From Flavobacteriaceae bacterium (lineage in GTDB: Bacteria > Bacteroidota > Bacteroidia > Flavobacteriales > Flavobacteriaceae): a DNA stretch of 47,206 nucleotides. The notes under the pieces were generated by a model. That model was not told where the DNA came from and searched no databases. It saw only the letters and a program-made list of their open reading frames with translations. Made by a program: the position numbers and the translations under genes. The DNA lies in the NCBI GenBank assembly GCA_029248185.1, contig JAQWJV010000036.1, forward strand, positions 1 to 47,206, given 5' to 3'. Shown piece by piece: positions 5,040 through 46,324 of this stretch (its first letter is position 1; each line of letters starts with the position of its first letter).

Positions 5040-5065
5040 TTATTAAAAATTCAAAATCAATTAAA

Positions 5066-6565: not shown

Positions 6566-6579
6566 TTGTTTATTAAGTT

Positions 6580-6613
6580 AAATTAGGGGTGCTGCGCCAC
6601 CTCTAATTTTTTT
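6580..6613 (+). terminator. Rho-independent terminator-like hairpin after susD
   Basis: A 12-bp stem pairs AAATTAGGGGTG (6580-6591) with CACCTCTAATTT (6598-6609), with one G-U pair and a six-base loop. It is followed by a T-run. It lies 14 bases after the susD stop and probably terminates or attenuates susCD transcription. Confidence 0.75.
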
Positions 6614-6631
6614 ATTATTTTTTGTTTAGTT

Positions 6632-6663
6632 AAATTAGAAGGGGTCTATCCCCTTCTAATTTT
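6632..6663 (+). terminator. Second hairpin in the susD-6679 gap
   Basis: A perfect 13-bp stem pairs AAATTAGAAGGGG (6632-6644) with CCCCTTCTAATTT (6650-6662) around a TCTAT loop. The T-run is short. Its 5' arm is nearly the same as that of the previous hairpin (both begin GTTAAATTAG), so the two look like a duplicated element. It could be a back-up terminator or an mRNA 3'-end stabiliser ahead of the next gene. Confidence 0.65.
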
Positions 6664-6678
6664 ATAGTATTATGTCAT

Positions 6679-23097: not shown

Positions 23098-23100
23098 AAT

Positions 23101-24885
23101 ATGAATAGACTGGTAGGTAGATTACCCAAGGTTGGAATACGCCCAGTAATTGATGGGCGAGAAGCAGGAGTTAGAGAATCCCTTGAGCAACAATGTATGG
23201 ACATGGCCAAAGCTGCCGCAAAGCTCATCGAAACACATTTAAGATTTCCAAGCGGAGAACAAATTGAATGTGTGATTGCCGACTCCACCATAGGAGGTGT
23301 GGTTGATGCTGCACAATGCGCAGATAAATTTCAAAAGGAGGGAGTAGGAGTCTCTCTTACCGTCACTCCTTGTTGGTGTTATGGAACTGAAGTGATGGAC
23401 ACCGATCTACTAATTCCTAAAGCAGTTTGGGGGTTTAATGGAACAGAACGTCCGGGTGCGGTTTATTTAGCTGCTGCTCTGGCAGGATACTCCCAAAAAG
23501 GATTGCCTGCATTTGGAATTTATGGCAAAGAAGTTCAAGACTCCGATGACCTGAGCATTCCAAATGATGTTAAGGAAAAAATACTTCGATTCACAAAGGC
23601 AGCCCTTGCCGTTGCTCAAATGAAGGGGAAATCATATTTATCCATTGGATACAGCTCTATGGGAATTGCGGGCTCTATGGTGGACGTCAATTTTTTACAG
23701 GATTACTTGGGAATTCGTGCAGAATTCGTAGAGTCTGTTGAGCTGTTGCGACGGATGGAAGAGGGGATATTCGATAAAGAAGAGTTCGACAGAGCCATGA
23801 TATGGACCAAGAAATACTGCAAAGAAGGAAAAGACTACAATGACGAATCTCGTCAAAAAAACCAAGATCAGAAAAATAATGAGTGGGAGACCGTTGTGAA
23901 AATGACGTTGATATGTCGCGATTTGATGTCGGGCAATCCTAAGCTGAAAGAAATGGGATTTGGAGAAGAGGCCAAAGGAAGAAACGCAATAATAGGGGGG
24001 TTTCAGGGTCAAAGACAATGGACTGATTATCAGCCCAATGCAGACTTTACGGAAGCGATTTTAAACTCTTCGTTTGACTGGAACGGGATTCGACAAGCTT
24101 ATGTGTTTGCCACTGAAAATGATTGTCTCAATGCGATATCTATGCTATTTGGTCACTTACTGACCGGAAAGGCCCAGCTTTTTTCTGATGTCCGAACCTA
24201 TTGGAGTCCAAATTCAGTAGAGAGAGTTAGTGGTGAAAAGTTGTCTGGAATTGCCAAGGATGGTATTATTCATCTTATCAACTCAGGCTCTACATCTTTA
24301 GATGCTACTGCACAACAAGAGGATAAAGAGGGCCTGCCCACCATGAAACCTTTTTGGGAGATTTCAGAAGAGGAAGCAGCGCGATGTTTGGAGCATACGC
24401 TGTGGCCTCCTGCTATAAACGAATATTTTAGAGGGGGTGGATTTTCATCTCAATTCAAAACCAGAGGATCCATGCCCATGACCATGTCCAGAATCAATTT
24501 AGTAAAAGGCATTGGCCCCGTTTTACAATTGGTAGAAGGATGGAGCGTTGAACTTCCCGAGACTATTCACAAAATTTTAGATGAGCGCACCAATCCTACT
24601 TGGCCAACAACATGGTTTGTCCCTCGAACTATAGGTAAAGGCTTTTTTAGGGATGTGTATACGGTAATGTCCAAATGGGGAGCCAATCACGGCGCAATTT
24701 CACATGGTCACATCGGTGCCGATTTGATTTCCTTGGCCGCTATGCTTCGTATTCCTGTCAATATGCACAATGTTCCTGATGAAGATATTTTTAGACCAAG
24801 TGCTTGGTCTGCGTTTGGGGAAAATCTCGAAGGAGCAGATTATCAAGCCTGTAAAAACTATGGATCTCTATACGGATTCAAATAA
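23101..24885 (+). CDS. fucI: L-fucose isomerase
   Basis: A 594-residue protein, very similar throughout to the 591-residue E. coli FucI. Landmarks are [20 protein letters not shown] at the N-terminus, [41 protein letters not shown], and [30 protein letters not shown]. The metal and catalytic residues Glu339 (ATENDC), Asp363 (SDVRTYWSP) and His537 (SHGHIGADL) are present. It converts L-fucose to L-fuculose using Mn2+, and the family also accepts D-arabinose. It sits between two aldolase genes, with a four-base step from rhaD and 18 bases to the bifunctional gene. No L-rhamnose isomerase gene is in the window, so L-fucose is the best-supported entry sugar. Confidence 0.96.
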
Positions 24886-24903
24886 ATTAATAATCAGATT
24901 ATA

Positions 24904-27006: not shown

Positions 27007-27031
27007 ATTGATCATTCCAAAGCATTGACTC

Positions 27032-28342
27032 ATGACAGATTGTATCACCGTAATTGATATCGGGAAGACCAACAAAAAAATACTGTTGTTTGACAATTTC
27101 TACAATGTTATTTACCGTAAATCCATTCGCTTTCAGGAGCTGGTCGATGACGACGGATTTCCTTGTGATGATATTGATGCCATTGAAAAGTGGATTTTTG
27201 ACGAAATAAAAAATGTCCAAGAACAAGGGATTTATAACATCAAAGCCATCAATTTTTCTACCCATGGTGCAACGCTTGTTTATTTAGATAAAGAGGGGAA
27301 TCGTTGTGCCCCGGTCTACAATTACTTGAAGTCGCTTGATAAGATTGATTTTGACCCTTTTTACAAGAATTATGGTGGTGTTGATGATTTTTCACGTAAT
27401 ACCGCTTCCCCCGCCTATGGGATGCTCAACAGTGGTATGCAGATATATTGGCTGAAGCATGTAAAACCCAAATATTGGGAAAAGGTAGCTACTATTTTAC
27501 ATTATCCTCAATATTTGAGTTACTTATTCACTCATAAAATTTCTGCGGACTATACTTCCATTGGTGCTCATACGGCCCTTTGGGATTTTGATCAAATGGA
27601 TTATCACCCTTGGATAAAAGACCAGCAAATCAAACTTCCAGCCCCAGAAGATGGATCAAAAGCCACTATGGCAAACTTTAATGGACAAGAGATTGCTTTT
27701 GGAGCAGGACTTCATGACAGTTCCTCCTCTATCGTTCCTCTTTTACGTAGAAGTGATAAAAAGTTTGTGCTGCTCTCTACAGGAACTTGGATCATATGCA
27801 TGAATCCTTTTAGTAAAGAAAAGCTTACTTTGGAGCAGCTCAACAAAAACTGTCTTTGTTTTATGACCCCAAACAAAGATCAGGTTAAATCCTCAATGCG
27901 TTTTTTAGGCCATGCACACGAGCTTTATACAGAAGCTTTGAGTGCTCATTTTTCAAAAGACTTAGACACACACACAAGTTTGGATACAGATTTGGACTTG
28001 ATCCAAAACTCCCTCAAAAACACTAAAAAAATATTGCTCCCTCCAATCGTGGATGGAGATTTCAAAGTGGATATAAAGGGATTGAGTATTTTTTCATCTT
28101 ATGAGGAGGCCTATTGTCAGCTCATGGCCGAGATCAGCATCAAAGTAGCTGATGGCATAAAACTAGTTTTAGACGATGACAATAACATAAAACATCTCTA
28201 TTTATCGGGGGGATTTAATAAGAATAAATGGTTTGTTTGTTTTATCGAATTATTAATGCCTAATTTCATACTCGAACTCTCTGATATTAAAAACGAAAGT
28301 GCTTTGGGCGCAGCACTAATGATGGACTCCTATTTCAATTAA
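27032..28342 (+). CDS. FGGY-family carbohydrate kinase (probable L-fuculose/L-rhamnulose kinase)
   Basis: A 436-residue protein, slightly short for the family (about 450-500). The first ATP-binding motif is TVIDIGKTNKKILLFD. FSTHGATLVYLDKEGN matches the second part of the N-terminal sugar-binding domain, and GAGLHDSSSSIVPLL and LLSTGTWIICMNPF lead into the C-terminal domain. LYLSGGFNKNKWF and ESALGAALMM are the adenosine and phosphate motifs. Kinases of this type phosphorylate C1 of ketoses in the cytoplasm. Between the isomerase/aldolase genes and the regulator it supplies the step from deoxyketose to deoxyketose-1-phosphate. It starts 26 bases after the bifunctional gene. Whether it prefers fuculose or rhamnulose cannot be told. 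Confidence 0.85.
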   Translation: MTDCITVIDIGKTNKKILLFDNFYNVIYRKSIRFQELVDDDGFPCDDIDAIEKWIFDEIKNVQEQGIYNIKAINFSTHGATLVYLDKEGNRCAPVYNYLKSLDKIDFDPFYKNYGGVDDFSRNTASPAYGMLNSGMQIYWLKHVKPKYWEKVATILHYPQYLSYLFTHKISADYTSIGAHTALWDFDQMDYHPWIKDQQIKLPAPEDGSKATMANFNGQEIAFGAGLHDSSSSIVPLLRRSDKKFVLLSTGTWIICMNPFSKEKLTLEQLNKNCLCFMTPNKDQVKSSMRFLGHAHELYTEALSAHFSKDLDTHTSLDTDLDLIQNSLKNTKKILLPPIVDGDFKVDIKGLSIFSSYEEAYCQLMAEISIKVADGIKLVLDDDNNIKHLYLSGGFNKNKWFVCFIELLMPNFILELSDIKNESALGAALMMDSYFN

Positions 28343-32514: not shown

Positions 32515-32593
32515 TCATTTTTGGATACAAAATGATTGATTAGAGAAATTGGCATTAAAAGCTAAATCCTATAATTGTGACAAATTTTTAACA

Positions 32594-34399
32594 ATGAAAT
32601 TTCTCTCTTACTGTATAATTTTATCTTCAGTTCTTTGCTTTGGCCAAAAGCAAAACTCAAAAAGCGCTCAAAGCGTAAAAAAGGAAACTCTTGAAATGGA
32701 TAATATGTGGGGGAAGCAAATTGTCCTTGACCAAGGTTTACTTGAGGAGAGATCCCAACTTTTTAAGAACAGTAAATTTGCTATGTTTATCCATTGGGGA
32801 CTTTACTCAAACCTAGGGGGTGTATGGAAGGACAAAACTTATTACGGAATAGGGGAATGGATAATGAATCCCAGACTTGGCAATATTCCTGCTGACGAAT
32901 ATATGGAAAAAGCAATCGAATTCAATCCCACAAAATTCGATGCTAAAGCCGTGGCTAAGTTAGCAAAGGATGCCGGGATGAAATACATTATCATAACCAG
33001 TAAGCATCATGAAGGTTTTGCCATGTTTGACTCAAAAGCCAGTGCTTTCAATATTGTAGATGCCACCCCATTTAAAAGAGATCCAATGAAGGAATTATCA
33101 CAAGCTTGTAAGGAAATTGGCTTGGGCTTTGGTTTTTATTACTCACACAATCAAGATTGGACATCACCGGGAGCTACAGGAGGACCCATGCTCGACGAAA
33201 ACAATAAAAAGGCGAGTTTTGAAAATTATTTTTATAATAAATGCCTCCCGCAGGTAAAAGAGATTTGCTCAAATTATGGGAATCTTGATTTCGTATGGTT
33301 TGACACTCCCGGAAACATGGAGGGCAAATTTATCATGGAACTTGTTAAAACCGTGAGAGAGTTACAACCAAAAGCCATGTTATGTAGCAGGGTCGGTTTT
33401 GGATTGGGTGATTATATATCACAAGGAGATATGGAGGTTCCACTCTCCAACATTGATGGCTTGTGGGAGACCTGTGATACCAACAACGACTCGTGGTCAT
33501 ATGCTTGGTACGACGAAAATTTCAAAAGTTCAAAAGAAATCCTTCAAAGATTAGTTTCAACTGTTGCTCGTGGAGGTAGTTATTTGTTCAATATTGGATT
33601 AAAAGGAACAGGAGAAATACCTGAGCTTGGACAGCTATTTTTAGAAAAAACAGGCAAATGGATTAAGAAATATCCTTTTGTCATCTATGGAGCAGGCAGG
33701 TCTCCATGGGGTAAAGCCCTTCCTTGGGGTGACGTAACTACACAGAAGGATAAATTATATTTAAATATTTATGATTGGCCTAAGGATGGGAAGATTTATC
33801 TGCCAGGTTTCGATGGTAAAATTGTTTCAGTAAAATTATTGAAAGAAAATAAATCTGTAGATGTTCCTCATGTAAAAGAAAAAGATTGGACCGTTTTTTC
33901 CTTGCCGGGAACCCAATCTGACTATCCCATTTCAGTGGTTGAAGTAGCTCTAGCCAGCGATCAGTTCACTGTGGATAAAACTATTGGAATTATTCCCAAT
34001 CATGAAAATTTACTCCATGTTGAGCATTCCGAAGAATCTAATGTTGAGAAGAAAGAAATCAAATGGATGGAAAAGTTTGGTGAATGGAAACACGTAAACC
34101 AAGCGAGCAATTGGGAACCAGATGGAAAAGTAAGTTGGGAAATTAACGTCAAAAAGCCAGGATTTTACCACCTCGGGCTATCTTTTAAAGGAAATGGTAG
34201 ATTGGTTTGGCGCGTCCAAACTAAAGAAGGAAAGTTAGTTCAGAATCAGCATGAAGCTACCAATAAATATGCGCTATATGATTTGGGATTGATCGAATTT
34301 AAAAAACCCGGCATGAACACTATATCCGTTTCGCTGATTGAAGGGGACACTAAATCTGCAAGTCTTAAAGCGATTGAATTAACATCAATTGAGTTCTAG
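32594..34399 (+). CDS. GH29 alpha-L-fucosidase, secreted
   Basis: A 601-residue protein from ATG 32594, which yields a signal peptide (KFLSYCIILSSVLCFGQ); the upstream TTG at 32549 does not. GH29 landmarks are AMFIHWGLYSNLGGVW, the substrate-binding TSKHHEGFAMFDSKAS, GLGFGFYYSHNQDW, and the nucleophile Asp237 in GNLDFVWFDTPG. The catalytic domain (about 30-380) is followed by two beta-rich regions, the last (about 490-600) resembling a carbohydrate-binding sandwich. It hydrolyses terminal alpha-L-fucose outside the cytoplasm. The gene lies directly behind the HTCS gene and close to the fucose catabolic operon, and is the strongest enzymatic evidence that fucose is a component of the target glycan. 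Confidence 0.93.
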   Translation: MKFLSYCIILSSVLCFGQKQNSKSAQSVKKETLEMDNMWGKQIVLDQGLLEERSQLFKNSKFAMFIHWGLYSNLGGVWKDKTYYGIGEWIMNPRLGNIPADEYMEKAIEFNPTKFDAKAVAKLAKDAGMKYIIITSKHHEGFAMFDSKASAFNIVDATPFKRDPMKELSQACKEIGLGFGFYYSHNQDWTSPGATGGPMLDENNKKASFENYFYNKCLPQVKEICSNYGNLDFVWFDTPGNMEGKFIMELVKTVRELQPKAMLCSRVGFGLGDYISQGDMEVPLSNIDGLWETCDTNNDSWSYAWYDENFKSSKEILQRLVSTVARGGSYLFNIGLKGTGEIPELGQLFLEKTGKWIKKYPFVIYGAGRSPWGKALPWGDVTTQKDKLYLNIYDWPKDGKIYLPGFDGKIVSVKLLKENKSVDVPHVKEKDWTVFSLPGTQSDYPISVVEVALASDQFTVDKTIGIIPNHENLLHVEHSEESNVEKKEIKWMEKFGEWKHVNQASNWEPDGKVSWEINVKKPGFYHLGLSFKGNGRLVWRVQTKEGKLVQNQHEATNKYALYDLGLIEFKKPGMNTISVSLIEGDTKSASLKAIELTSIEF

Positions 34400-34468
34400 T
34401 CTATGTTTATCTAAAACGATTCATAGGAATCATATAACCTGAAAAAGGTAATTTAACCTTCAAATGAA

Positions 34469-35503
34469 ATGAAAAGAAAATACAGTTTAACATTGATTGT
34501 TTTTATTATTTCCATTTTATTCATTCAGGCTCAAAATACAATCGTACCCAATTGGAAAATCAATCCAGAAAAGGAGTTAAATCCCAATACATCTTGGTTG
34601 AGAGAAGCCAAATGGGGACTTTTTGCGCATTACATGGCTCACAGACCAAGTGCTCCAATTCCAGAGGACATGACTCCTGCCAAATGGAATGAAAAGGTAA
34701 ATTCATTTGAAATTAAATCTTTTGCAAATCAATTGACCGATCTAAGTGTGCCCTATTTTTTCATTACGATAGGACAGGGAGGAGGCTATTATTGTTCCCC
34801 TAATAAAACTTATGAAAAACACTTTGGTCCATCTGAAGGTAAATTGTCTAAGAGGGATCTTATAGCAAATCTTGGAACCGAATTGAAATCAAGGGGTATT
34901 CGCTTATGTGTTTATTTACCTGCACTTGGTCGCAGAGATGGTAAAGAGATTCAACAAAAATATCGGGAAGTGATTAAAGAATGGTCAATGCGTTGGGGAG
35001 ATTTGATCTCTGCTTGGTGGATCGATGGCGCTGTCTATGACTCACCAGACGTTTTCAAGGCATATACAGAGGCCTTTAAAAGTGGAAATCCAAATGCGAT
35101 TGTTGCTTATAATGTTGGACCTGTTGGGATGAATCGGAAGCAATTGGTTCCTGTAACCGAATATGAAGATTATATGGCGGGAGAGTGTGATTATGTTCTC
35201 CCAACCAGTGCAAATATTCCACGGGACCTCGGCGTGCATTTTACTGTAAGCGGAGATGGGAAATATTACATTGGACCCAATATTTCCGGTAATCAGTTGC
35301 ATTTCCTAAACTTCCTCGGCGAGTGGTGGGGGACGGGAAATCCAAGATTTCCAAATGAATTGGTATCTGCTTGGACTCAACATGTTATCGATAACAAGGG
35401 TGCTGTCTCATGGGATTTACCTCTTCAAGATAACGGCATAATTCCTGAGAATTACTTCAACCAAGTAAAGGAACTTAGTAAAAGAATTAATGGTTCAAAA
35501 TAA
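34469..35503 (+). CDS. Short GH29-like secreted protein (putative alpha-L-fucosidase-related)
   Basis: A 344-residue protein with a signal peptide (LTLIVFIISILFIQAQ). It consists of one TIM-barrel-like domain only. WLREAKWGLFAHYMAH corresponds to the start of a GH29 barrel (AMFIHWG), YFFITIGQGGGYYCSPN to the KHHEGF strand, and DLISAWWIDGAVYDSP to the nucleophile strand (FVWFDTP) with Asp in the right place. The general match places it in GH29 or a close relative of clan GH-R. It lacks the HHEGF histidines, and the C-terminal beta domains of its neighbour are missing, so specificity may differ or activity may be lost. It starts 69 bases after the GH29 gene. The family call is moderately sure; function is open. 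Confidence 0.6.
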   Translation: MKRKYSLTLIVFIISILFIQAQNTIVPNWKINPEKELNPNTSWLREAKWGLFAHYMAHRPSAPIPEDMTPAKWNEKVNSFEIKSFANQLTDLSVPYFFITIGQGGGYYCSPNKTYEKHFGPSEGKLSKRDLIANLGTELKSRGIRLCVYLPALGRRDGKEIQQKYREVIKEWSMRWGDLISAWWIDGAVYDSPDVFKAYTEAFKSGNPNAIVAYNVGPVGMNRKQLVPVTEYEDYMAGECDYVLPTSANIPRDLGVHFTVSGDGKYYIGPNISGNQLHFLNFLGEWWGTGNPRFPNELVSAWTQHVIDNKGAVSWDLPLQDNGIIPENYFNQVKELSKRINGSK

Positions 35504-35538
35504 GTTGACATTCTATTCAAATCATCTATTTTAGTTTT

Positions 35539-35604
35539 ATGAAAGAAACTAATTTACAACCAAATAAGAATGAAGAATTAGGTTTTAAGGCCATCTTGAC
35601 TTAA
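35539..35604 (+). pseudogene. Possible gene-start remnant in the 35.50-35.94 kb gap
   Basis: The 437-base gap between the GH29-like and sulfatase genes has no intact gene. ATG 35539 opens 21 codons (KETNLQPNKNEELGFKAILT) to TAA 35602. The same frame then reads WGLLPFLNF before TGA, which looks like the first membrane helix of a lost transporter-type gene. The assignment is weak. The rest of the gap holds the hairpin at 35715-35735 and a weak one near 35894. Confidence 0.25.
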
Positions 35605-35714
35605 TGGGGTCTGCTTCCATTTCTTAACTTTTGACAGTTCGTATCCCTAAAGGTCAAGCATGAGTGTCATCACTTGTAAACAGAGCCTTTATTACTAACC
35701 AATGACATCAACTC

Positions 35715-35735
35715 TATAGCCCAATATGGGCTATA
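35715..35735. terminator. Perfect 9-bp hairpin in the gap before the second sulfatase
   Basis: TATAGCCCA, ATA, TGGGCTATA form a perfect stem with a three-base loop, followed by an A-rich then GTGGGGTTTTTAAA stretch. It may terminate the upstream transcript or be a protein-binding palindrome. No T-run follows directly on the plus strand. Confidence 0.4.
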
Positions 35736-35940
35736 AAAATAAAAAAGTGGGGTTTTTAAAGCGAGGGTAATCTTTCATAGGGAAGAATAGAGTATAGGAG
35801 AAGCTAATAATTGTAAATAACAATACTTCTCAATCCCAATTTGAATCTCCATTCAATAGGAGGCCATTGATATTTTAGTGGTGGAAGGCCTATAGTGGTT
35901 AGCCACTCTACAAGAAAAAAATATAATGTATTGAAAAATC

Positions 35941-37380
35941 ATGAAAAGTAATCATCTAAATATTCGGACTGTTTTAAAGTTATTTATTTATGGATTTTTG
36001 TTGCTTTCGGTTAGCAATTGTTCTTTAAAAAAGGAAGATAGCAATCAAAAGAAAAACAAGGATAACCGCCCAAATATCATCTTTATTTTTGCTGACGACT
36101 GGGGATGGGGCGATTTGAGTTGTCATGGCCATCCTTATGTCAAGACGCCTAATATAGACCGTCTTGCAAAAGAAGGAACGGACTTTCTAAGATTTACAAC
36201 CGCTAGCGGTGTTTGCTCTCCAAGCAGAACTGCGGTTATGACCGGACAATTTCCAGCCCGACACAATATCGATGGTCATTTTGCTTGGGTATCGGATAAT
36301 GCAAGAAGGAATATGCCTGATTGGTTAGATCACGAAACCACCCTCTTGCCCAGGATTTTACAACGTAATGGATATACAACAGCTCATTTCGGTAAGTGGC
36401 ATCTTTCTAATAATATGATTCCAGATTCTCCCTTGCCCAGCAAGTATGGTTATGATACTTACGGTGCTTTTAACTGTTCCGGAGAGCAAATCCCAGTCCA
36501 TGAAGATGCCAATAGTGCCATTTCGTTTATTAAGAAAAGTCACAGCGAAAAAAAACCTTTCTTTATTAATCTATGGATTCATGAACCTCACACCCCCCAC
36601 CATGTAATTCCTAAATACCAATGGCGCTTTCCAAACCTTAAAGAACCTGACAATATTTATGCTTCGATTTTATCTCATGCAGATGATAGAATTGGACAGG
36701 TATTGGATGAACTGGATCGTCTGAAATTGACGGAAAACACATTGGTGATATTTAGTTCAGACAATGGTCCGGCCAGATCAAGCAGCAATCGGAAAAAATT
36801 GAGCCTAATGTTTGACTCGGCAACTGGTGCGGGTTTTGGTCTTGAGGCTTCCAAAGGCATTACTGGAGGAAGGAAAGGCTATAAAGCAGCCCTATTTGAG
36901 GGGGGAATAGGTGTTCCATTTATCGCTCGCTGGCCGGGAAAAATCAAGGCTGGAATGATTGACAATTCCTCGCTGATGTCGGCAGTAGATTTGCTTCCTA
37001 CTTTCTGTGAAATCGCTGGTGCCAAACTTCCAGAATCATATAAACCCGATGGGATAAGTCAAGTTAAAACACTTAAGGGAAAAAAATACCCCGTAAGAAC
37101 CAAACCCCTATTCTGGAAAATGAATGCCAATTGGCCTGCGCCAAAAAACAAGCCGGATCATTGGGTATCATATGCTGTTCTTGATCAAAATTGGAAACTC
37201 CTTGCCAGCGAAGATTTTAGTCATCATGAGCTTTATGACATTACTAATGATGTTTATGAAAAAAATGATCTAAAACAGGCTCATCCTGATGTTGTAGTAA
37301 AACTATTAAATAAAATACGTGAATGGAAAAATGGTCTTCCTGAAAAACCAGACAAAAAATTATTTTCTGGTACTAGATAA
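35941..37380 (+). CDS. S1-family sulfatase lipoprotein
   Basis: A 479-residue protein with a lipoprotein signal (FLLLSVSNC). The sulfatase fold is clear: metal site FIFADDWGWGDLSCHGHP, signature CSPSR with formylglycine Cys about 92 followed by TAVMTGQFPARHNI, GKWHLSNN, WIHEPHTPHH, and SSDNGPARSS. It is shorter than the 10066 sulfatase and differs in the signature (CSPSR against CAPTR), so the two probably belong to different S1 subfamilies and act on different sulfate positions. The next gene starts seven bases after its stop, so the sulfatase and the GH106-like protein are tightly coupled. A separate upstream promoter is likely because of the 437-base gap, but none was identified. Confidence 0.92.
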   Translation: MKSNHLNIRTVLKLFIYGFLLLSVSNCSLKKEDSNQKKNKDNRPNIIFIFADDWGWGDLSCHGHPYVKTPNIDRLAKEGTDFLRFTTASGVCSPSRTAVMTGQFPARHNIDGHFAWVSDNARRNMPDWLDHETTLLPRILQRNGYTTAHFGKWHLSNNMIPDSPLPSKYGYDTYGAFNCSGEQIPVHEDANSAISFIKKSHSEKKPFFINLWIHEPHTPHHVIPKYQWRFPNLKEPDNIYASILSHADDRIGQVLDELDRLKLTENTLVIFSSDNGPARSSSNRKKLSLMFDSATGAGFGLEASKGITGGRKGYKAALFEGGIGVPFIARWPGKIKAGMIDNSSLMSAVDLLPTFCEIAGAKLPESYKPDGISQVKTLKGKKYPVRTKPLFWKMNANWPAPKNKPDHWVSYAVLDQNWKLLASEDFSHHELYDITNDVYEKNDLKQAHPDVVVKLLNKIREWKNGLPEKPDKKLFSGTR

Positions 37381-37387
37381 TAATTTT

Positions 37388-40300
37388 ATGATGAAAAGAC
37401 ATCTTATTTCATTAGTAATTGGGATTTCTTTTACTGCCTTAAATTCAAATTTATTGGTCGCTCAAAAATCGGGGGAAGAAATTTCTGGATATGAATTAGT
37501 GGAGTTAAGCAATCCCGATAATCTTTCTAAAACTGATATTAATGCGCCGGGTTTTCCCACACGTGCAGTTGATTTAGACGTTCTACCGGGTTTTCAAAAT
37601 CCGCCTAATGGTTATGGTGAGGTTCCCTTTTGGTGGTGGACAGGTGATCCACTGAACAAAGATCGTCTGCTATGGCAAATAGAAGAGCTACACAAGAAGG
37701 GGGTAAACGGCATGCAGGTTAACTATTCTCACACAAAAGAGAAAGGATGGCCAACAGATAAAGCTGATCCTGAGCTATTCTCTGAGGAATGGTGGGACAT
37801 TTGGGAATTCGTAGTACAAGAGTGTAGCAAACGAGATATGGGCATTGGATTGAGTGGCTATACCATTGATTGGCCCAAACCCAACATGGAAGCCAGTAAT
37901 CTATTCAGTCGTATCATCTACTCAATACCCGAAATCAATGGACGAACTATTGAAATTGATACAATACTAAGTGTTAAATCAAGTGACAAAGTTTCAATCA
38001 CAATTTCAGATAAAAGTATCGGTGTTTGGGCTTATCCTATTCGAAATAGGTCATTGAATTTTGGAGGTATTGATTTACAAAAATTCGTTACAAACTCTAA
38101 TCTAAATTGGACTGCTGAAGAGGGAGAATGGGAGATATATGTTTTTAGTGCTGTTAGCCATCCTGGAACCATCAACCCCATACACCCCCTTGCCGGAAGC
38201 ACTGTAATCAATAAATTCTTTGAGCAATTCCAACACAATACGGTAGATAAAACATCTAAAGGATTAAACTATTTTTTCCAAGATGAATTAAAGTTTGGAG
38301 TAGGGGATCGTATCTGGACAAACGATTTTAACGATCAGTTTAGAAAATATAAAGGATATGAGGTGTTTGAGGTTCTTCCAGCACTTTATACGGACATGGG
38401 TCAGATAACCGCCAAGGCTCGTCTTGATTTTATGGATGTTAAAATACATCTTTCGGAAGAACGGTATTTTAAACCAATATTTGATTGGCACTGGTCAAGG
38501 GGGATGATTTATGGATGCGATCCCAGCAGCAGAGGGAAAAAACCAGAAGAGTATGGTGATTATTTTAGAGGTACAAGATGGTACACCGCTCCTGGGCATG
38601 ATACCCCCGGAGGAAATGCCGATCTAATAAAAGGCAAGGTATCGAGTTCCATTGCCAATCTCTATAAACGTCCCCGTGTTTGGTTAGAAGGTTATCACAG
38701 TTTGGGATGGGGTGCTACTCCCGAAAGACTAATGTATGCTACAAGTGAAAATTACCTTTACGGCTGTAATCTTCTCAACCTACATGGTTTGTATTATTCC
38801 ACACATGGTAGTTTTTGGGAGTGGGCTCCTCCGAGTTACCATTTCAGAATGCCCTATTGGGATCATTTGGATGTTTTCCTAAAATATTTCGAGAGACTTT
38901 CTTATTTATTGAGCCAAGGAGTTTTGCAATCCGATATTGCAATCCTGTATCCGGTAAGCCCCTTGCAAGCCGAAATGAAATCTCCAACAGAAACCAGCTT
39001 GTATCGCAATCAAAGTGTATTGCAGAATAAGCAAGGTGTATTAAAGGTTAATTCTAAAGAATTCACAAAAACAGCTTTTGAATCCGGGACCGAATTATTC
39101 AATAGTGGATATGACTTTGTTTTTATCGATCATCAATCACTAATCCGAGCCGAAATAGATCAAAATCAATTTACTGTCTCAGATGCGACATATAAAGTAC
39201 TTGTCTTGCCGTCAATGAAATCAATGCGATGGTCAACCGTTCAGCAAGCCCTAAAATTTTACAGAAGTGGAGGGATTGTTATTGCTGTTGAGTCCCTTCC
39301 CCAAGCGAGTGATCGTATTGGTAACGATGATCCAGAACTCGATAAGGCAATAAAGGAGATTTTTGGCGTATCAACCAATGAAATCAATTCAGGAATCAGT
39401 CTTAAAAAGCAAGGCAATAAAGCAGGTGGTATTGGCTTATTCGTAAAAGATGCCCATCAATTAAAAAATGAAATTAGTAAGCTTTTAACCCAGCATGTAA
39501 GTTCAGATGAATCCGTTAGAGCCATGCATCGGAAAATAGGAAAGCGTGATGTATATATGGTTATGGGTAGTGGCAAAGATGTCAGCTGTGATTTTCTGTC
39601 CAAAGGGAAGGTTGAACAATGGGATCCTTGGACTGGAAAAGTCACTCCCCTATATCAGTCAACTGAAACCAACTTAGGAACCAATATTAGATTGTCATTC
39701 GAAGAAAACCAGTCTCAAATCATTGTTTTTTCTCCGGGTGAGATTCCGGTAAAAGTTATTTCTACTCAACTGGATGAAATCGCCAATATTGAGAAAAATA
39801 AATGCAATATAACAGTTACCGGATACACCCGCGTTCCTGGTTTAAGTGAAACAACCCTCAATGTCAATGGCGAATTGATCAAGGTCTCAGTTTATGCATC
39901 TCCTCCCCCCACTCCACTTCGGCTAGATGGTGATTGGGAATTTGAATTAAAACCTACAATGAACAATAGCTGGGGTGACTTTCGACTTCCAGTTTTTGAA
40001 AAAATCATTGGCGCTGAAGCTCGTTTTTTTAGTTATGCAGAGGAAACATCTGACCCTGTAGGTTGGGAGTTAGCGGATATTGATGATTCAAAATGGGAAC
40101 GAGTAACATATGGATTTGGTCAGAAGTTCTGGAAACTTGGTCCTCTCCCAAGCGGATGTGATTTATCGGGATTGGAGCAAGAATTATCTACAACTTACCA
40201 GATTGATCCAACCAATCCAGTAATCGTCAATGGTAAAACATACAACTGGGAACCGTATGACTATTCGTGGAGAATGGGTATCGAAGGTGATCCCGGAGAC

Positions 40301-41323
40301 CAAAAGGGTTATCATGGATTGAAAAAGCGCTTAACAAGCGATTTTATATTGTTTAAAAAACAAAAAGAAACAGATAGTATGGGTATAAATTATCTATGGA
40401 CTTCTGCTTATACTCATAAGAAAACAAAAGTTCAACCCCATATAGGGAATCTAAAACCCTCGGTTATTTATCTAAACAGTAAAAAAGTACCTATTCTCTC
40501 CTCAGAATTAAAGCTTAAAGCTGGAAACAATCCTTTACTTTTAAGATATGACACACTAGGGCGTACCCACTTTGTGCTTGAAAAATCGGATGCTGAAGGA
40601 AGCGATAAAAGAACTCCTTTATCCATGAAATGGTGGGATATGGAGGGAAGAATCAATTTTGATGTAAAACCTGAATCAACTGCTCATTATGGGTGGTATC
40701 GTTTTACGGCACCTCCCGGATTGCAGTCCATGACAATCAGAGCAATGGGACAGTTAGAAGTATGGGTCAACGGCAAGTCTCAGGTTGTAAAAACTGTAAA
40801 AGAAGATTTTCCTGCTAAATATCAAGTAGATCTTTCGGAATCAATCAAGAAAAAATCCAAAGTTGCAGTTCGCATCAAGCAGGCTCAGGGGTTTTTTGGC
40901 GGTTCTGTTTTACCGGAACCTATTTTGCTCAACTGTACAGCAGGGGCCATTCAATTGGGCGATTGGTCAAAGGGTTCGGTGCTCGAAAATTATTCAGGCG
41001 GAGCTTGGTATCGTAAGAACATCCAATTGTCAAATAAGCAGGCAAACAGTAAGGTAATCATTGATTTGGGAAAAGAAGTCGTGGCTTCAGCAGAAGTGAA
41101 GATCAATGGGGTCTCTGCTGGCATTTTAGTTTCAGCACCATGGACGTTGGACATCTCAAAACTCGTGAAATCAGGAGATAATAGTATCGAAATTCTCGTT
41201 TATAACACACTATCAAATCACTTCAAAACCATTCCCACCAAATACAACACAAACAAAGAGCAAAAGTCAGGATTAATAGGTCCGGTACAAATAGAATTTT
41301 TAACAATAGTCGAACTCAAGTAA
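37388..41323 (+). CDS. GH106-like protein (putative alpha-L-rhamnosidase), secreted
   Basis: A 1311-residue protein from ATG 37388; the frame extends back to 37319, inside the sulfatase gene, but the signal peptide (KRHLISLVIGISFTALNSNLLVAQ) begins here. The N-terminal catalytic region has the GH106-type opening PPNGYGEVPFWWWTGDPLNKDRLLWQIEELHKKGVNGMQVNYSH. It continues with GLSGYTIDWP, YFFQDELKFG, and WLEGYHSLGWGATPERLMYATSENYLYGCNLLNLHG, whose glutamates are catalytic candidates. The C-terminal 350 residues contain beta-sandwich domains including a sugar-binding-like segment (GGAWYRKNIQLSNKQ...VKINGVSAGILVSAPWTLDISKLVKSGDN). GH106 enzymes release alpha-L-rhamnose. At about 1300 residues it is longer than many relatives. 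The family match is fairly good, but specificity could extend to other deoxy-sugars. Confidence 0.7.
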   Translation: MMKRHLISLVIGISFTALNSNLLVAQKSGEEISGYELVELSNPDNLSKTDINAPGFPTRAVDLDVLPGFQNPPNGYGEVPFWWWTGDPLNKDRLLWQIEELHKKGVNGMQVNYSHTKEKGWPTDKADPELFSEEWWDIWEFVVQECSKRDMGIGLSGYTIDWPKPNMEASNLFSRIIYSIPEINGRTIEIDTILSVKSSDKVSITISDKSIGVWAYPIRNRSLNFGGIDLQKFVTNSNLNWTAEEGEWEIYVFSAVSHPGTINPIHPLAGSTVINKFFEQFQHNTVDKTSKGLNYFFQDELKFGVGDRIWTNDFNDQFRKYKGYEVFEVLPALYTDMGQITAKARLDFMDVKIHLSEERYFKPIFDWHWSRGMIYGCDPSSRGKKPEEYGDYFRGTRWYTAPGHDTPGGNADLIKGKVSSSIANLYKRPRVWLEGYHSLGWGATPERLMYATSENYLYGCNLLNLHGLYYSTHGSFWEWAPPSYHFRMPYWDHLDVFLKYFERLSYLLSQGVLQSDIAILYPVSPLQAEMKSPTETSLYRNQSVLQNKQGVLKVNSKEFTKTAFESGTELFNSGYDFVFIDHQSLIRAEIDQNQFTVSDATYKVLVLPSMKSMRWSTVQQALKFYRSGGIVIAVESLPQASDRIGNDDPELDKAIKEIFGVSTNEINSGISLKKQGNKAGGIGLFVKDAHQLKNEISKLLTQHVSSDESVRAMHRKIGKRDVYMVMGSGKDVSCDFLSKGKVEQWDPWTGKVTPLYQSTETNLGTNIRLSFEENQSQIIVFSPGEIPVKVISTQLDEIANIEKNKCNITVTGYTRVPGLSETTLNVNGELIKVSVYASPPPTPLRLDGDWEFELKPTMNNSWGDFRLPVFEKIIGAEARFFSYAEETSDPVGWELADIDDSKWERVTYGFGQKFWKLGPLPSGCDLSGLEQELSTTYQIDPTNPVIVNGKTYNWEPYDYSWRMGIEGDPGDQKGYHGLKKRLTSDFILFKKQKETDSMGINYLWTSAYTHKKTKVQPHIGNLKPSVIYLNSKKVPILSSELKLKAGNNPLLLRYDTLGRTHFVLEKSDAEGSDKRTPLSMKWWDMEGRINFDVKPESTAHYGWYRFTAPPGLQSMTIRAMGQLEVWVNGKSQVVKTVKEDFPAKYQVDLSESIKKKSKVAVRIKQAQGFFGGSVLPEPILLNCTAGAIQLGDWSKGSVLENYSGGAWYRKNIQLSNKQANSKVIIDLGKEVVASAEVKINGVSAGILVSAPWTLDISKLVKSGDNSIEILVYNTLSNHFKTIPTKYNTNKEQKSGLIGPVQIEFLTIVELK

Positions 41324-41346
41324 GAACTTAAATCACAGAAAATCCT

Positions 41347-43692
41347 ATGAAATTTATAAAAGCATTTTTATTCGCAGGAATAACCCTATGTTCATCCTGC
41401 AATGGATTTCCCGAGATTGATACAGCTGTCAACTACATAAATCCATTTATTGGTGCAAGTACCAATGTAGCAGACGCTGGTGCATTTCACGGTTTGGGCA
41501 AGACCTTTCCCGGGGCAACAACTCCATTTGGTCTCGTTCAAGTGAGTCCAAATACAATAACTGGTGGTGACAATGGTTCTGGTTATAGTTACGAACATAC
41601 AACCATTGAAGGTTTTGCCTTTACACAAATGAGTGGTATCGGTTGGTACGGTGATCTGGGTAATTTTTTGGTGATGCCAACAACCGGTGAATTGAAAACT
41701 TCTTCTGGTAGAATAAGCAATCCAGAAGAAGGTTATCGGTCGAGATATTCGAAAGAAGATGAAGTTGCAAAGGCGGGTTATTATGCTACAACGCTTACTG
41801 ATTATGGAATAAAAGTGGAAGCTACGGCAGCTGCTCATAGTGGGATACTACGATTTACCTTTCCCGAAAATAAGCAATCACGCATTCAGATTGACTTAGC
41901 TAGACGAGTGGGGGGTACCTCAACAGAACAGTATATAAAAGTTATTAACGAAAACACCATTCAGGGTTGGATGAAATGCACTCCTGATGGCGGTGGATGG
42001 GGCAATGGAGAAGGTAATCCCAATTATACGGTCTTCTTTTATGCGCAATTCAGCAAACCACTGAAAAATTATGGAGTCTGGAGTGGCGATATTCCAGAGG
42101 ACTGGTCTCGAAAACGTCAGAGCATTGAGAGCGATAAGTTTAGAGAACTGGTGGCCAATGCGAATTTGGAAAAAAAATTCAAAGAAAAACAAGGTAAACA
42201 TCTTGGATTTTTCACAGAATTTGAAACATCTGAAAAGGAGGAGGTACTGCTAAAATCAGGAATTTCATTTGTGAGTATGGAAGGAGCCAAAAACAATCTT
42301 TTCTCGGAAATACAAAATTTTGACTTTGATAAGGTAAATAGTAATGCTGTAAAATTGTGGAATGTTGCTATGAGTAAAATAAAGGTGGAAGGAGGTCATG
42401 AAGAAGATAAATATATTTTCTATACAGCACTTTATCATACCATGATTGATCCGCGAAGTTTTACAGATGTTAATGGGAGTTATCCCGGCGGTGACAAACA
42501 AATTCGCAAATCAGACAAGTTCACCAAACGCACTATTTTTAGTGGATGGGATGTATTTAGAAGTCAGTTCCCTCTCCAAACCATTATCAATCCTGAGATT
42601 GTCAATGATATGATAAACTCACTCATAGAGTTGGCTGATAAAACGAAAAGGGGCTATTTCGAACGATGGGAGTTCCTCAATAGCTATAGTGGCTGTATGC
42701 TTGGAAATCCAGCCATATCTGTTATGGTTGATGCTTTCAACAAAAATATTCGTGGTTTTAATATTGAAAAGGGCTATGAAATTGCTAAGATGACAAGTGA
42801 GATGTTTGGTAATGAACAGTTGGGTTTTAATACATACAAAGGAGCGATATCCTCAACCTTGGAACTCTCCTACACAGAGTGGTGTATGTCTCTTTTAGCA
42901 GACAGTCTGGGTTATAAAGATGATGCAGAAAAATACCGTAGGCTCTCTAAAAGTTATGCTAATGTTTTTGATCGAGAAAAGGGATGGTTTCGGCCCAAAA
43001 GCGAAGATGGCAGCTGGGTAGAACCCTGGCCTGAAAGAGGTCGGCTAACTCAGGATTATGGCTCTAGGGAAAGCAACCCCTATCAACAAGGATGGTTCGT
43101 ACCCCACGATATCGAGGGTTTGTCCGAGCTTCTTGGAGGAAAAGAAACTGCCTTGGCTGATTTGAATAATCTCTTTGAAAATGTACCTAAAGACATGATG
43201 TGGAACGACTATTACAATCATGCTAATGAACCCGTACATCATATTCCTTTTCTTTTTAACCGCCTTGGAGCACCTTGGCAGACTCAATACTGGACACGAC
43301 AGATTTGTAAAAGAGCTTATCGTAACACTGTAAAAGGCCTCGTAGGAAATGAAGATGTTGGGCAAATGTCAGCATGGTATGTTTTAGCAGCTAGTGGTAT
43401 TCATCCTATTGCACCAGGTGAAAATCGTTATGAGATTACCAGCCCCGTTTTTAATAGGATTGAAATTAAACTGGATCCAAAATATGCCAAAGGGCAAACT
43501 TTCACAATCCTTGCTCATAACAATTCAGATGAAAATGTCTATATCCAATCGGCTAAATTAAATGGGGAAAACTGGAATAATTCCTCGATTACTCATGATC
43601 AACTCGCTGCCGGTGGTCTCCTTGAACTTGAAATGGGGAAACAACCAAATAAAGACTGGGGTTCTGAACTTAAAGAAAAAACCTATCAATAG
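41347..43692 (+). CDS. GH92 alpha-mannosidase-family protein, secreted
   Basis: A 781-residue lipoprotein (TLCSSC at about 18), normal length for GH92. The N-terminal domain starts with the family opening VNYINPFIGAS...GLGKTFPGATTPFGLVQVSPNT and SGYSYEHTTIEGFAFTQMSG. The (alpha/alpha)6 domain includes FYTALYHTMIDPR, FSGWDVFRSQFPLQTIINPE, FERWEFLNSYSGCMLGNPA, and GNEDVGQMSAWYVLAASGIHPIAPGENRYEITSP near the end. GH92 enzymes are calcium-dependent exo-alpha-mannosidases using inversion. It starts 23 bases after the GH106-like gene. Its presence implies alpha-mannose in the target glycan, or in a glycoprotein glycan attacked by the same locus. Confidence 0.92.
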   Translation: MKFIKAFLFAGITLCSSCNGFPEIDTAVNYINPFIGASTNVADAGAFHGLGKTFPGATTPFGLVQVSPNTITGGDNGSGYSYEHTTIEGFAFTQMSGIGWYGDLGNFLVMPTTGELKTSSGRISNPEEGYRSRYSKEDEVAKAGYYATTLTDYGIKVEATAAAHSGILRFTFPENKQSRIQIDLARRVGGTSTEQYIKVINENTIQGWMKCTPDGGGWGNGEGNPNYTVFFYAQFSKPLKNYGVWSGDIPEDWSRKRQSIESDKFRELVANANLEKKFKEKQGKHLGFFTEFETSEKEEVLLKSGISFVSMEGAKNNLFSEIQNFDFDKVNSNAVKLWNVAMSKIKVEGGHEEDKYIFYTALYHTMIDPRSFTDVNGSYPGGDKQIRKSDKFTKRTIFSGWDVFRSQFPLQTIINPEIVNDMINSLIELADKTKRGYFERWEFLNSYSGCMLGNPAISVMVDAFNKNIRGFNIEKGYEIAKMTSEMFGNEQLGFNTYKGAISSTLELSYTEWCMSLLADSLGYKDDAEKYRRLSKSYANVFDREKGWFRPKSEDGSWVEPWPERGRLTQDYGSRESNPYQQGWFVPHDIEGLSELLGGKETALADLNNLFENVPKDMMWNDYYNHANEPVHHIPFLFNRLGAPWQTQYWTRQICKRAYRNTVKGLVGNEDVGQMSAWYVLAASGIHPIAPGENRYEITSPVFNRIEIKLDPKYAKGQTFTILAHNNSDENVYIQSAKLNGENWNNSSITHDQLAAGGLLELEMGKQPNKDWGSELKEKTYQ

Positions 43693-43783: not shown

Positions 43784-46324
43784 ATGAGTAAATTAATGAA
43801 AACTACGAAAACAATCCTTATTATTACAGCAGTCATGTTTTTTTTAGGGTGTAATAAATCTTATAAAATGACCGGAATTCATTCTGTTGCAAATTCCAAA
43901 AACGGCCAAATTACCTCTGTCTCTGGAACACGTAAAATAAGTGGGATATACCCACACTTAACTACTTATTCTCATGGCAGAGAAAATGGCTCTTATGGTT
44001 TTGGGAATGAATGTGGTATTGGAGCTCTGGCAGTTTGGAATGATAAACTCTATATGCTTAATTACGCCGCACACCAACCTAAAGGGAGTGAGCATAAGTT
44101 ATATATTATTGATGAAGATAAAAACATGCAGATTTTTGAAGGAAGTATTGGTGGTACCCCAGCTGCCAGAATGATACATCAAGAATCTAATCAGTTATTA
44201 ATAGGGCCTTATGTTATTGATAGTATAGGTAAGGTTAGGGTAATCCCCTATTCCAATATGGAAGGACGATTAACCGCTATAGCTCGCCATTTAAAAGATC
44301 CAGAGAACATGGTTTACTATTACGATATGGAAGGCATACTCTATGAGGTTAATGTTCATACGTTGAAGGTGAAAAAATTATTTGAAGACCCCTTACCAGG
44401 ATGGCACGGAAAAGGAGGATATACTAGTCAAGGAAAGTTAGTAGTTTCTAATAATGGAGAGCATGCCAGTGAAGGTAAGGTTACACATGATAACGATGAT
44501 TGGGAAGCAGAACACTACCAATGGGAAGATAAATGGAAAGTTGATAAAGAGGATGTTTTTGGATTAGAAAACCTAGGTATTCTTGCTGAATTTGATGGAG
44601 ATAATTTTAAAATAGTAGAAAGAAGACAATATACTGATGTAACCACAAAGCATGGGATTTATGCTATTCCAAACGATCAATCTCCACTTTGGTCAATGGG
44701 TTGGGACAAAAAATCTGTTAGACTAAAAGTTTTAGATAAAGGAAAATGGTATACATATTTGTTGCCAAAGGCTACCTATAATAATGATCCACCTCATGGT
44801 TGGTTCACAGAATGGCCACGTATAAGATCAGTTGGAAACGGTAAAATGATGATGGATATGCATGGTATGTTTTATGATTTCCCTCAAACTTTTTCGGCTA
44901 ATAATTCCGCTGGAATAAAACCTATGGGTTCTCATTTACGGTATATACCAGATTTTTTAAATTGGAACGACCAAATCGTTTTAGCAACAGACGAAACAAG
45001 TATTCAAGGTAATCCTTTATCAGGGCAACCTCAATCTAATCTTTGGTTTGGATCTTATGATGAACTTTCAAACTGGGGTCCAGCTTCTGGATATGGTGCT
45101 ATTTGGTTAAAAGAGGATGTGAAGGCTAATACACATTCCAGTGCTTATTTAATGGCTGGATTTGACAATCGTATGGTGCACTTTAAAAATCATGGAGATA
45201 TTTCTGTTAAAATCACTATGGAAATTGATGTTAATGGAGATAACAATTGGAAAGCATACAAATCTATATCTTTAGAAAAAGAAGCGTATGCTTATCATCT
45301 ATTTGATCAAGGGCTAAAGGCTAATTGGATAAGGTTGGTTTCAGATTCAAATTCAAAGTTAACTGCAACCTTTCATTTTACCGATTCAAATTTAAAAAAC
45401 AGATTTGATGGTGAAATACTTTTTTCTGCTTTGGCTGATATAGAATATGACGGAGAAGTAAGTCACGCTAAACTATATAGTAATAAGACTAATTTTAACC
45501 TTAGTGTAATTGCTGGATCTATTGAAAATGGTCAATTCAACAGAACCAAAGATATTGAGTTTAAAAAATTAGATTTTAACTATCAAGAAGGCATTACGGA
45601 CACCACAGCTTTAGAAGCTTTAAAAGTGAAAGATCTCTGGTCCGAGGACGAGGCATCAATTATATTAAAACTAAAACACTCACAATTACGATTACCCAGA
45701 ATAAATAGCACATATTCCACTAAGTTGCCTTCAGGAACTACCCGTCTAGTACGTGAAGTTGAATCTGAACGTGAATTAGCCAATATTGCAGGAACTTTTT
45801 ATGAATTACCCTTATTTAAAGTAGGACAAGAACCACTTTATAAAATGATGCGTCCAGTTTCAACTCATGGCAAACAGATATCTGATTTTAACACATGGAA
45901 TGGTTTATTGGTTTTAAGCGGTGTAAAAAAATATTCTATTGATTCAGAACACATTTACACTTCAGAAGATAGTGAAACCAGTTTATGGTTTGGAGGTATT
46001 GATGATATCTGGGATTTTGGAAAGCCAGTGGGAGAAGGTGGTCCATGGAAAAACACACAAGTAAAAGCTAATGAGTTATCCGACAAGTACTTAATGACAG
46101 GCTATGATAAAAAAACACTTATGCTAAAGGCTGACAAAGACACAAAAGTAACTTTATTAATACATGTGAACCATTATTTAGAGGAACCAATGGAATACAA
46201 AACGTTTAATTTGAAAACAGGTGAAACGGTGGAATATGAATTTCCAAATGGATTTAGTGCGCATTGGGTCCAAGTAAAAGCAAATAAAGATTGTTCTGCA
46301 ACCGCATGGTTCGTTTATGAATAA
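43784..46324 (+). CDS. Unrecognised secreted lipoprotein with tandem internal duplication
   Basis: An 846-residue protein with a lipoprotein signal (FFLGC at about 23). I do not recognise the family. The N-terminal 300 residues look like beta-propeller blades (IGALAVWNDKLYMLNY, SEHKLYIIDEDKNMQIF, PENMVYYYDMEGILYEVN). The second part is a duplication. Residues about 300-532 and about 614-846 align, sharing LKV/LKL, LPK/LPR, G(M/T)FY(D/E)(F/L)P, DF..WN, LWFG..D(E/D)(L/I).(N/D)(W/F)G, VKAN, YLM(A/T)G(F/Y)D, a beta stretch, and an aromatic end (ATFHF / ATAWF). A linker of about 80 residues (533-613) may echo the propeller part. It is the last intact gene of the degradative block, 91 bases after GH92. 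It could be a new glycan hydrolase/lyase with a propeller fold or a surface glycan-binding protein. Confidence 0.8.
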   Translation: MSKLMKTTKTILIITAVMFFLGCNKSYKMTGIHSVANSKNGQITSVSGTRKISGIYPHLTTYSHGRENGSYGFGNECGIGALAVWNDKLYMLNYAAHQPKGSEHKLYIIDEDKNMQIFEGSIGGTPAARMIHQESNQLLIGPYVIDSIGKVRVIPYSNMEGRLTAIARHLKDPENMVYYYDMEGILYEVNVHTLKVKKLFEDPLPGWHGKGGYTSQGKLVVSNNGEHASEGKVTHDNDDWEAEHYQWEDKWKVDKEDVFGLENLGILAEFDGDNFKIVERRQYTDVTTKHGIYAIPNDQSPLWSMGWDKKSVRLKVLDKGKWYTYLLPKATYNNDPPHGWFTEWPRIRSVGNGKMMMDMHGMFYDFPQTFSANNSAGIKPMGSHLRYIPDFLNWNDQIVLATDETSIQGNPLSGQPQSNLWFGSYDELSNWGPASGYGAIWLKEDVKANTHSSAYLMAGFDNRMVHFKNHGDISVKITMEIDVNGDNNWKAYKSISLEKEAYAYHLFDQGLKANWIRLVSDSNSKLTATFHFTDSNLKNRFDGEILFSALADIEYDGEVSHAKLYSNKTNFNLSVIAGSIENGQFNRTKDIEFKKLDFNYQEGITDTTALEALKVKDLWSEDEASIILKLKHSQLRLPRINSTYSTKLPSGTTRLVREVESERELANIAGTFYELPLFKVGQEPLYKMMRPVSTHGKQISDFNTWNGLLVLSGVKKYSIDSEHIYTSEDSETSLWFGGIDDIWDFGKPVGEGGPWKNTQVKANELSDKYLMTGYDKKTLMLKADKDTKVTLLIHVNHYLEEPMEYKTFNLKTGETVEYEFPNGFSAHWVQVKANKDCSATAWFVYE

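Follow-up and report, generated by a model that had tools for sequence, protein, structure and literature searches.

A conserved protein family with a predicted beta-propeller and an apparently old half duplication in a locus for sulfated fucose-type glycans

Introduction

Little is known about the enzymes that open fucose-rich algal glycans, which are a candidate carbon sink. Here we consider a 47,206-nucleotide stretch of a Flavobacteriaceae bacterium (GenBank assembly GCA_029248185.1, contig JAQWJV010000036.1, positions 1 to 47,206; hereafter the window), which encodes SusC and SusD, an FG-GAP/ASPIC protein, two sulfatases, a glycoside hydrolase (GH) of family GH31, an esterase-like protein, L-fucose catabolism, a hybrid sensor and GH29, GH106 and GH92 enzymes. 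The question raised by this locus is what a further gene at 43784-46324, here called the target, contributes to it. We find that its product belongs to a real and old protein family that is named in none of the libraries searched and shows an unusual half duplication, in a locus of a well-known kind. At a probability of about one half, we favour the reading that it is a glycan-active enzyme of an undescribed family, which faces the periplasm and there cuts or trims sulfated oligosaccharides that contain L-fucose, the case for catalysis being drawn from conservation and gene context. A conserved protein of such loci that crosses phyla and has neither a Pfam or NCBIfam model nor a solved sequence relative is a direct target for assays.

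Results

Identity of the target protein

An earlier note, made from the letters of the window, had described the product as an unrecognised 846-residue lipoprotein. This description held: the open reading frame (ORF) is exact, a lipobox is present, and no match at E ≤ 1 was obtained against Pfam-A, NCBIfam or the PDB sequences. Twenty family members searched against Pfam hit six scattered families with a best E of 0.053 (in two members). From all PDB sequences, the 20-sequence family profile retrieved Nup37 at E 0.049, a carboxypeptidase at E 0.41 and nothing else, and a 15-sequence profile of residues 32-535 returned the same Nup37 chain at E 0.0099 over 56 positions, with nothing convincing among the matches. 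No name for the family was found in the literature, supplements and most subscription papers lying outside the search; the passages of PMC11036162, PMC12786026, PMC10778895, PMC8377490, PMC8406133, PMC5080379 and PMC8238504 do not name it. The target has the following features.

43784..46324, + strand: target ORF, 846 residues, unrecognised family (ORF translation; family and PDB sequence searches without usable match)
43784..43852, + strand: residues 1-23, a signal peptide ending in the lipobox FLGC; the next residues, NKSYK, carry no acidic surface-export signal (translation; rule as given in passages of PMC5080379)
44015..45121, + strand: predicted beta-propeller, residues 78-446, read as seven blades (strand order in both models, Foldseek, conservation)
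44681..45379, + strand: first copy of the duplicated module, residues 300-532, read as blades 5-7 and a beta-sandwich (BLASTP/Smith-Waterman, hhalign)
45143..45382, + strand: predicted beta-sandwich after the propeller, residues 454-533 (model strands; "sandwich" is our reading)
45419..45643, + strand: connecting stretch with predicted strands, residues 546-620 (model; no invariant position at 540-619)
45623..46321, + strand: second copy, residues 614-846, read as a sandwich preceded by about three blades, with invariant positions of its own (same alignments, conservation)

Internal duplication and its history

The motifs that the earlier note had listed in residues 300-532 and 614-846 are present in order, and their origin by internal duplication was confirmed by three comparisons. 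BLASTP of residues 300-614 against 614-846 gave 29% identity over 240 columns (E 3e-23). In a Smith-Waterman alignment, residues 300-600 scored 221 with residues 601-846, compared to 35 ± 5 (maximum 58) for 500 shuffles, and hhalign of the family profiles paired target residues 300-532 with 616-845 at a probability of 99.9 (E 9e-31). The N-terminal part (residues 24-300; profile 34-300) showed no detectable relation to either copy.

The duplication is kept in all 26 full-length relatives aligned. Two relatives of 485-486 residues (L001:15490-16950 and L050:9221-10678; numbers with L denote loci, those with G genomes) consist of the N-terminal part and one module only. In an unrooted module tree of these 28 proteins, which contained no outgroup from outside the family, the 26 first copies formed a clade (support 94), all 26 second copies split from the first copies and short forms (support 100), and the short forms lay in between. 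The latter are about equally like both copies, with mean identities of 0.38 to the first and 0.35-0.36 to the second, compared to 0.26 between the copies within one protein. Because the short forms branch between the copies, the duplication looks single and old; that blades 5-7 and the sandwich were copied together once, long ago, explains the tree most simply. On this reading, and in a tree that lacks an outside root, the short form would resemble the ancestor in shape. An old, fixed duplication that joins a full propeller to a half copy, with single-unit relatives still extant, is a clean test case for how propellers gain a second functional surface.

Predicted fold and conserved residues

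AlphaFold2 models were obtained for the full-length protein from 20 sequences (mean predicted local distance difference test, pLDDT, 83.4; predicted template modelling score, pTM, 0.85) and for residues 32-535 from 15 sequences (pLDDT 78.9, pTM 0.82). Blade count, sandwich and pocket face were read from the strand order of these models. Both are consistent with a predicted beta-propeller, probably seven-bladed, that is followed by a C-terminal beta-sandwich. Past this first sandwich, the model places strands at 559-602, about three blades at 619-760 and a second sandwich at 768-845. Three blades cannot close a propeller.

With the model of residues 32-535, Foldseek matched 565 PDB chains (E ≤ 0.001); among the 50 listed, those that fit best are propellers of mixed function. 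For both models, the top 50 were mostly known propellers, judged by title. Structure prediction and fold search, which the earlier note had proposed as a check, both point to a propeller. That note had placed a propeller-like N-terminal half before the duplicated module. The propeller was recovered, but not as a separate half: because the predicted propeller (78-446) takes in most of the first module, the duplicated unit corresponds to blades 5-7 and the sandwich and is not a separate domain. Among viral models, Foldseek found mostly unnamed phage proteins and stabilisation proteins of the P22 Gp10 type, with template modelling (TM) scores up to about 0.4. We judged this likeness to be at the level of the fold only.

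Across the 26 full-length proteins, 124 positions are invariant: 48 at 50-299, 35 at 300-454, 6 at 455-539, none at 540-619, 29 at 620-764 and 6 at 765-845. Residues 50-454 thus hold 83 of them, of which 55 recur in both short forms. Twelve invariant residues fall on one predicted face of the propeller (E76, H97, R162, E183, H208, K210, N223, N224, E343, R346, H360 and D390). All of them are present in both short forms and, on the strand order of the models, look like an active or binding site. Further invariant polar residues (H132, R168, Q216 and D308) lie on the opposite side, again by strand order. The invariant histidines are at 97, 132, 208, 360 and 695, the tyrosines at 56, 94, 213 and 845, and the arginines at 129, 162, 168, 346, 348, 517, 636, 654, 657, 663 and 690. 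The second copy has an invariant set of its own, including R654, R657, E658, E662, R663, R690, H695, D740 and D741, which suggests a different, maintained role for it.

Export signal and location

Passages of PMC5080379 report that, in Bacteroidota, acidic residues after the lipobox cysteine send lipoproteins to the surface. The target has CNKSYK at this place, compared to CEDDFL in the SusD protein of the same locus. The net charge at positions +2 to +6 was zero or above in 13 of 14 lipobox proteins of the family, the window included (L006 has −1), and negative in 11 of 12 SusD proteins, with zero in the remaining one. Seven relatives (L012, L013, L014, L042, L045, L048 and L049) seem to carry an ordinary signal peptide and no lipobox; lipoboxes and signal peptides were classified by eye, and the full-length proteins of L015-L018 and L052 were left unclassified. 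From the missing acidic export signal and the relatives without a lipobox, we infer that the target protein faces the periplasm.

Distribution of the family

Relatives were found by contig search in 18 loci of Flavobacteriia, Bacteroidales, Planctomycetaceae, a Chthoniobacteraceae metagenome-assembled genome (MAG) and a Kiritimatiellae MAG, and a further one lies on a Spirosoma plasmid, annotated as hypothetical protein. Proteins of F. algicola and Mariniflexile sp. AS56 are among the relatives. The family is sparse. With the window's own genome included each time, it was detected in 3 out of 100 relatives, in 10 out of 299 genomes from the bacterial family (in one of them, G264, as a remnant) and in 5 out of 395 from the phylum. 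In viral contigs, 64 stretches fitted a search pattern and none was a relative. Neither the target gene (0 of 37) nor the L-fucose isomerase of the locus (0 of 24) was found in the same-genus genomes searched, most of them incomplete, and the locus therefore looks acquired and appears specific to the source species.

Some members deviate in form. A relative of 1199 residues (L045:7664-11263) has about 350 extra residues before and about 85 after the part matching the target. In genome G264, a remnant of the target gene with stops (L051, around 7000-7265) lies upstream of an intact cluster of FAD (flavin adenine dinucleotide) oxidoreductase, 370-residue protein and CstA genes. Just downstream of the target itself, a 137-residue ORF with a lipoprotein-like start runs on the − strand (46621-47034), and the DNA further along its strand resembles, by eye, the rest of an interrupted gene.

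The locus in the window

The neighbouring genes bear out the earlier note's view of a degradative locus, and specify it as one for sulfated fucose-type glycans, with sulfatases, GH29 and L-fucose catabolism genes.

1950..9957, + strand: SusC-like, SusD-like and FG-GAP/ASPIC proteins
22297..28342, + strand: L-fucose catabolism, comprising class II aldolase, L-fucose isomerase, aldolase/short-chain dehydrogenase and FGGY kinase
32549..43692, + strand: same-strand run upstream of the target, with GH29, GH107-like, sulfatase, GH106 and GH92 proteins
34469..35503, + strand: GH29/GH107-like protein, 344 residues, candidate endo-fucanase or fucosidase missed by Pfam (PDB sequence match)

The same note had seen no endo-enzyme in the locus. 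This is doubtful, as the ORF at 34469-35503 resembles, over its residues 165-320, GH107 endo-alpha-1,4-fucoidanases in the PDB (E 3e-6 to 5e-6). It also matches an alpha-L-fucosidase (E 2e-8). Given the distance of the match, it may be a new endo-fucanase, as a candidate only. The FG-GAP/ASPIC lipoprotein (1092 residues, 6679-9957, + strand) follows SusD; homologues of about 40% identity end the target cluster in L001, L002, L003 and L011.

Gene context in relatives

Context was counted in 25 distinct loci, within the available flanks of each. This set omits L039, L040, L041, L043 and L044, whose contigs are equal in length to those of L011, L004, L005, L002 and L003, the short loci L019-L038 (the window itself or places covered by longer loci), the remnant L051, and L052, which the context table did not cover. 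Two of the target genes, those of L005 and L042, belong to a single genome. Sulfatase homologues occurred in 13 loci, SusC or SusD in 11, GH29 homologues in 6 and FG-GAP/ASPIC proteins in 4. In Mariniflexile sp. AS56 (L008), the target gene lies with relatives of the window's L-fucose isomerase FucI (84% identity), kinase (57%), aldolase (55%), AraC (59%) and sulfatase (72%). The F. algicola locus also has GH97, GH95, GH43, GH2 and an esterase-like protein. Passages of PMC12786026 describe fucoidan-linked GH141 genes in Mariniflexile sp. AS56 and in F. algicola, which is called a fucoidan degrader there.

A second set of neighbours recurs outside the window. An FAD oxidoreductase (PF12831) gene follows the target gene in L001, L002, L003, L011 and the distant L047; the L011 protein has, by eye, a signal-peptide-like start. 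The next gene in L001, L002 and L003 (Euzebyella, Kriegella) and L011 (Snuella) encodes a conserved 370-residue family, which gave no Pfam match above chance and no flavin mononucleotide (FMN)-binding domain. All six homologues aligned (the alignment also contained two unrelated rows) have a Dxx(A/S/T)GAT stretch, which we take to resemble the ApbE flavinylation motif; the strict form with Ser/Thr occurs in three of the six, and the other three have Ala. For the background on flavinylation, we refer to the passages of PMC8238504. ORFs of about 370 residues adjoin the FAD oxidoreductase in L001, L002, L003, L011 and L051 (e.g. L011:14315-15427), with a further pair of this kind at 188-3315 in L002. 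The two proteins may form a covalently flavinylated redox pair inside polysaccharide utilization loci.

CstA-like transporters were present in 9 of the 14 genomes searched, all chosen for holding the target or its remnant. Seven of these nine have a copy no more than about 10 kb away from a target gene or remnant, and in five of the seven it is the sole copy; in G039 and G703 it lies elsewhere in the genome. This proximity is seen for close relatives, for a distant one and for a short form. The CstA-like proteins near the target family (L001, L002, L003, L004, L011, L042, L050 and L051) are 67-82% identical to the L011 copy. FAD oxidoreductase, 370-residue protein, CstA and GH88 are all absent from the window, and the window's genome (89% complete) gave no CstA-like match.

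Discussion

A periplasmic glycan-active enzyme is the reading that we favour for the target. SusC and SusD would bring in sulfated, L-fucose-containing oligosaccharides, which the lipoprotein, facing the periplasm, would then cut or trim. The reaction site would be a pocket that opens centrally on one side of the first propeller and is lined by the residues invariant in long and short forms, and the second copy may form a wall of the substrate groove or provide a second binding site. Since the genome shows no GH88/105, hydrolysis is favoured over beta-elimination in this organism. Several observations weigh against this reading. The conserved pocket could also be a binding site, and no characterised family in Pfam, NCBIfam or the PDB matched the target by sequence. 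The best fits among the top 50 Foldseek matches (Bub3, TMt 0.57; YncE, 0.55; WDR91, about 0.5) are generic, many of them non-enzymes, and the second match of residues 32-535 is BtuG1, a surface lipoprotein partner of a transporter. In several loci the target gene comes directly after SusD, a place often taken by glycan-binding proteins. Twelve of the 25 loci have no sulfatase homologue and 19 no GH29 homologue in the available flanks. Because the 14 genomes holding the target or its remnant encode 8 to 88 sulfatases each, a sulfatase near the target gene is not strong evidence by itself.

Of the alternatives, a polysaccharide lyase (PL) of the propeller type, as in PL24, PL25 and PL42, is the least improbable, though we consider it unlikely. 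Here His, Tyr and Arg on the anterior face would abstract a proton from a uronic acid and cause beta-elimination. Invariant residues of these three kinds on one predicted face would suit this reaction. So would the distant L047 cluster, in which SusC, SusD, a target homologue (about 40% identity), the FAD oxidoreductase, an esterase-like protein and GH88 stand together, with no other depolymerase recognised among the six genes (those beyond were judged from their first 50 residues only). The undescribed depolymerase of the earlier note keeps some ground through this cluster. Near the target, within 8 kb, GH88/105 genes were found in 3 of the 13 genomes with an intact long or short form (G703, G170 and G552), a count without a control for the clustering of carbohydrate-active enzymes (CAZymes) in polysaccharide utilization loci; 9 of the 12 genomes other than the window's had none, and the window's own genome (G000, 89% complete) gave no match to PF07470 (GH88/105), the only model searched. 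Residue numbers in passages of PMC8377490 place the His pairs of PL24, PL25 and PL42 20-21 residues and Tyr and Arg 16 residues apart (our derivation). These spacings, which serve here as a proxy of ours, do not occur among the invariant residues; the nearest is H338-H360 at 22, where H338 is conserved at ≥95% only and is missing from the L001 short form. The family profile found no similarity to solved PL24, PL25 or PL42 lyases, to GH145 or to any other PDB lyase, in a search without a positive control for remote lyases, and no lyase was named in the Foldseek top 50.

Two non-catalytic roles were weighed as well. The protein could be a periplasmic propeller that, for instance, assists another enzyme from the locus as its scaffold or by binding a ligand. 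This appears improbable and ranks below a lyase, even though the best-fitting folds are generic protein-binding propellers and the FAD oxidoreductase and 370-residue protein after the target in L001, L002, L003 and L011 could be its partners. Most conserved residues are polar, and they cluster in the propeller. Moreover, no constant partner was found, because the seven nearby genes scanned at L015, L016 and L017 (Planctomycetaceae, Chthoniobacteraceae) include no CAZyme and no such partner; they encode a transposase, a cytochrome b561/ethylbenzene-dehydrogenase type protein and an MFS protein; efflux pump parts; and VWA/BatA and UDP-sugar dehydrogenase proteins. Lower again we place a surface glycan-binding or SusC-capping lipoprotein, with two copies as two binding sites, as the earlier note had considered. 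The gene follows or adjoins SusC/SusD in L001, L002, L003, L004, L005, L046, L047, L049 and Spirosoma, and BtuG1, itself a propeller lipoprotein in complex with BtuB, fits the same picture. That proposal is weakened by the charges at +2 to +6, by the relatives seemingly without a lipobox, and by the 14 of 25 loci, including all four non-Bacteroidota, that have no SusC/D within the available flanks.

Finally, the recurrent neighbours allow a new, redox-first opening of sulfated glycans in the periplasm, which we regard as a long shot. A secreted FAD oxidoreductase with an electron carrier that is covalently flavinylated would oxidise a sugar, the propeller would cleave the activated glycoside, and a CstA-type transporter would take up the resulting small acid. 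The idea arises from gene order: Euzebyella, Kriegella and Snuella have target, FAD oxidoreductase, 370-residue protein and CstA together, the L047 homologue is likewise followed by the FAD gene, and CstA lies near a short form. It is opposed by the absence of these partners from the window's locus, by the lack of a Pfam FMN-binding domain, and by Ala in place of the expected Ser/Thr in three of six homologues.

Comparison with known systems

The target can be set beside four kinds of known protein. With the GH107 endo-alpha-1,4-fucoidanases and GH29 fucosidases it probably shares the substrate class, and a related gene (34469-35503) stands in the same locus. It is that neighbour which resembles them; the target has no sequence relation to these enzymes and a different predicted fold, GH107 and GH29 enzymes having a barrel. 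GH43-type glycosidases are five-bladed propellers, two of which, the arabinofuranosidase/xylosidase 9no3 and the endo-arabinanase 8ic1, are in the Foldseek top 50, at TM-scores of only about 0.1-0.3 and with no sequence relation to the target. Like the target, surface glycan-binding proteins of the SusE/SusF type and BtuG are lipoproteins often encoded beside SusC/SusD, and BtuG1 has a propeller fold. The target differs from them in having no surface export signal, and some of its relatives have no lipobox or no SusC/D. From the ulvan and rhamnose-glucuronate lyases of PL24, PL25 and PL42, the target is set apart by the absence of a detectable sequence relation and, on our proxy, of the catalytic spacings, by its extra predicted sandwich and partial second copy, and by a genome in which no GH88/105 was found. 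What it would share with them is the seven-bladed propeller type, on a count from strand order, and conserved His, Tyr and Arg on one predicted face, as compared with the lyase sites described in passages of PMC8377490.

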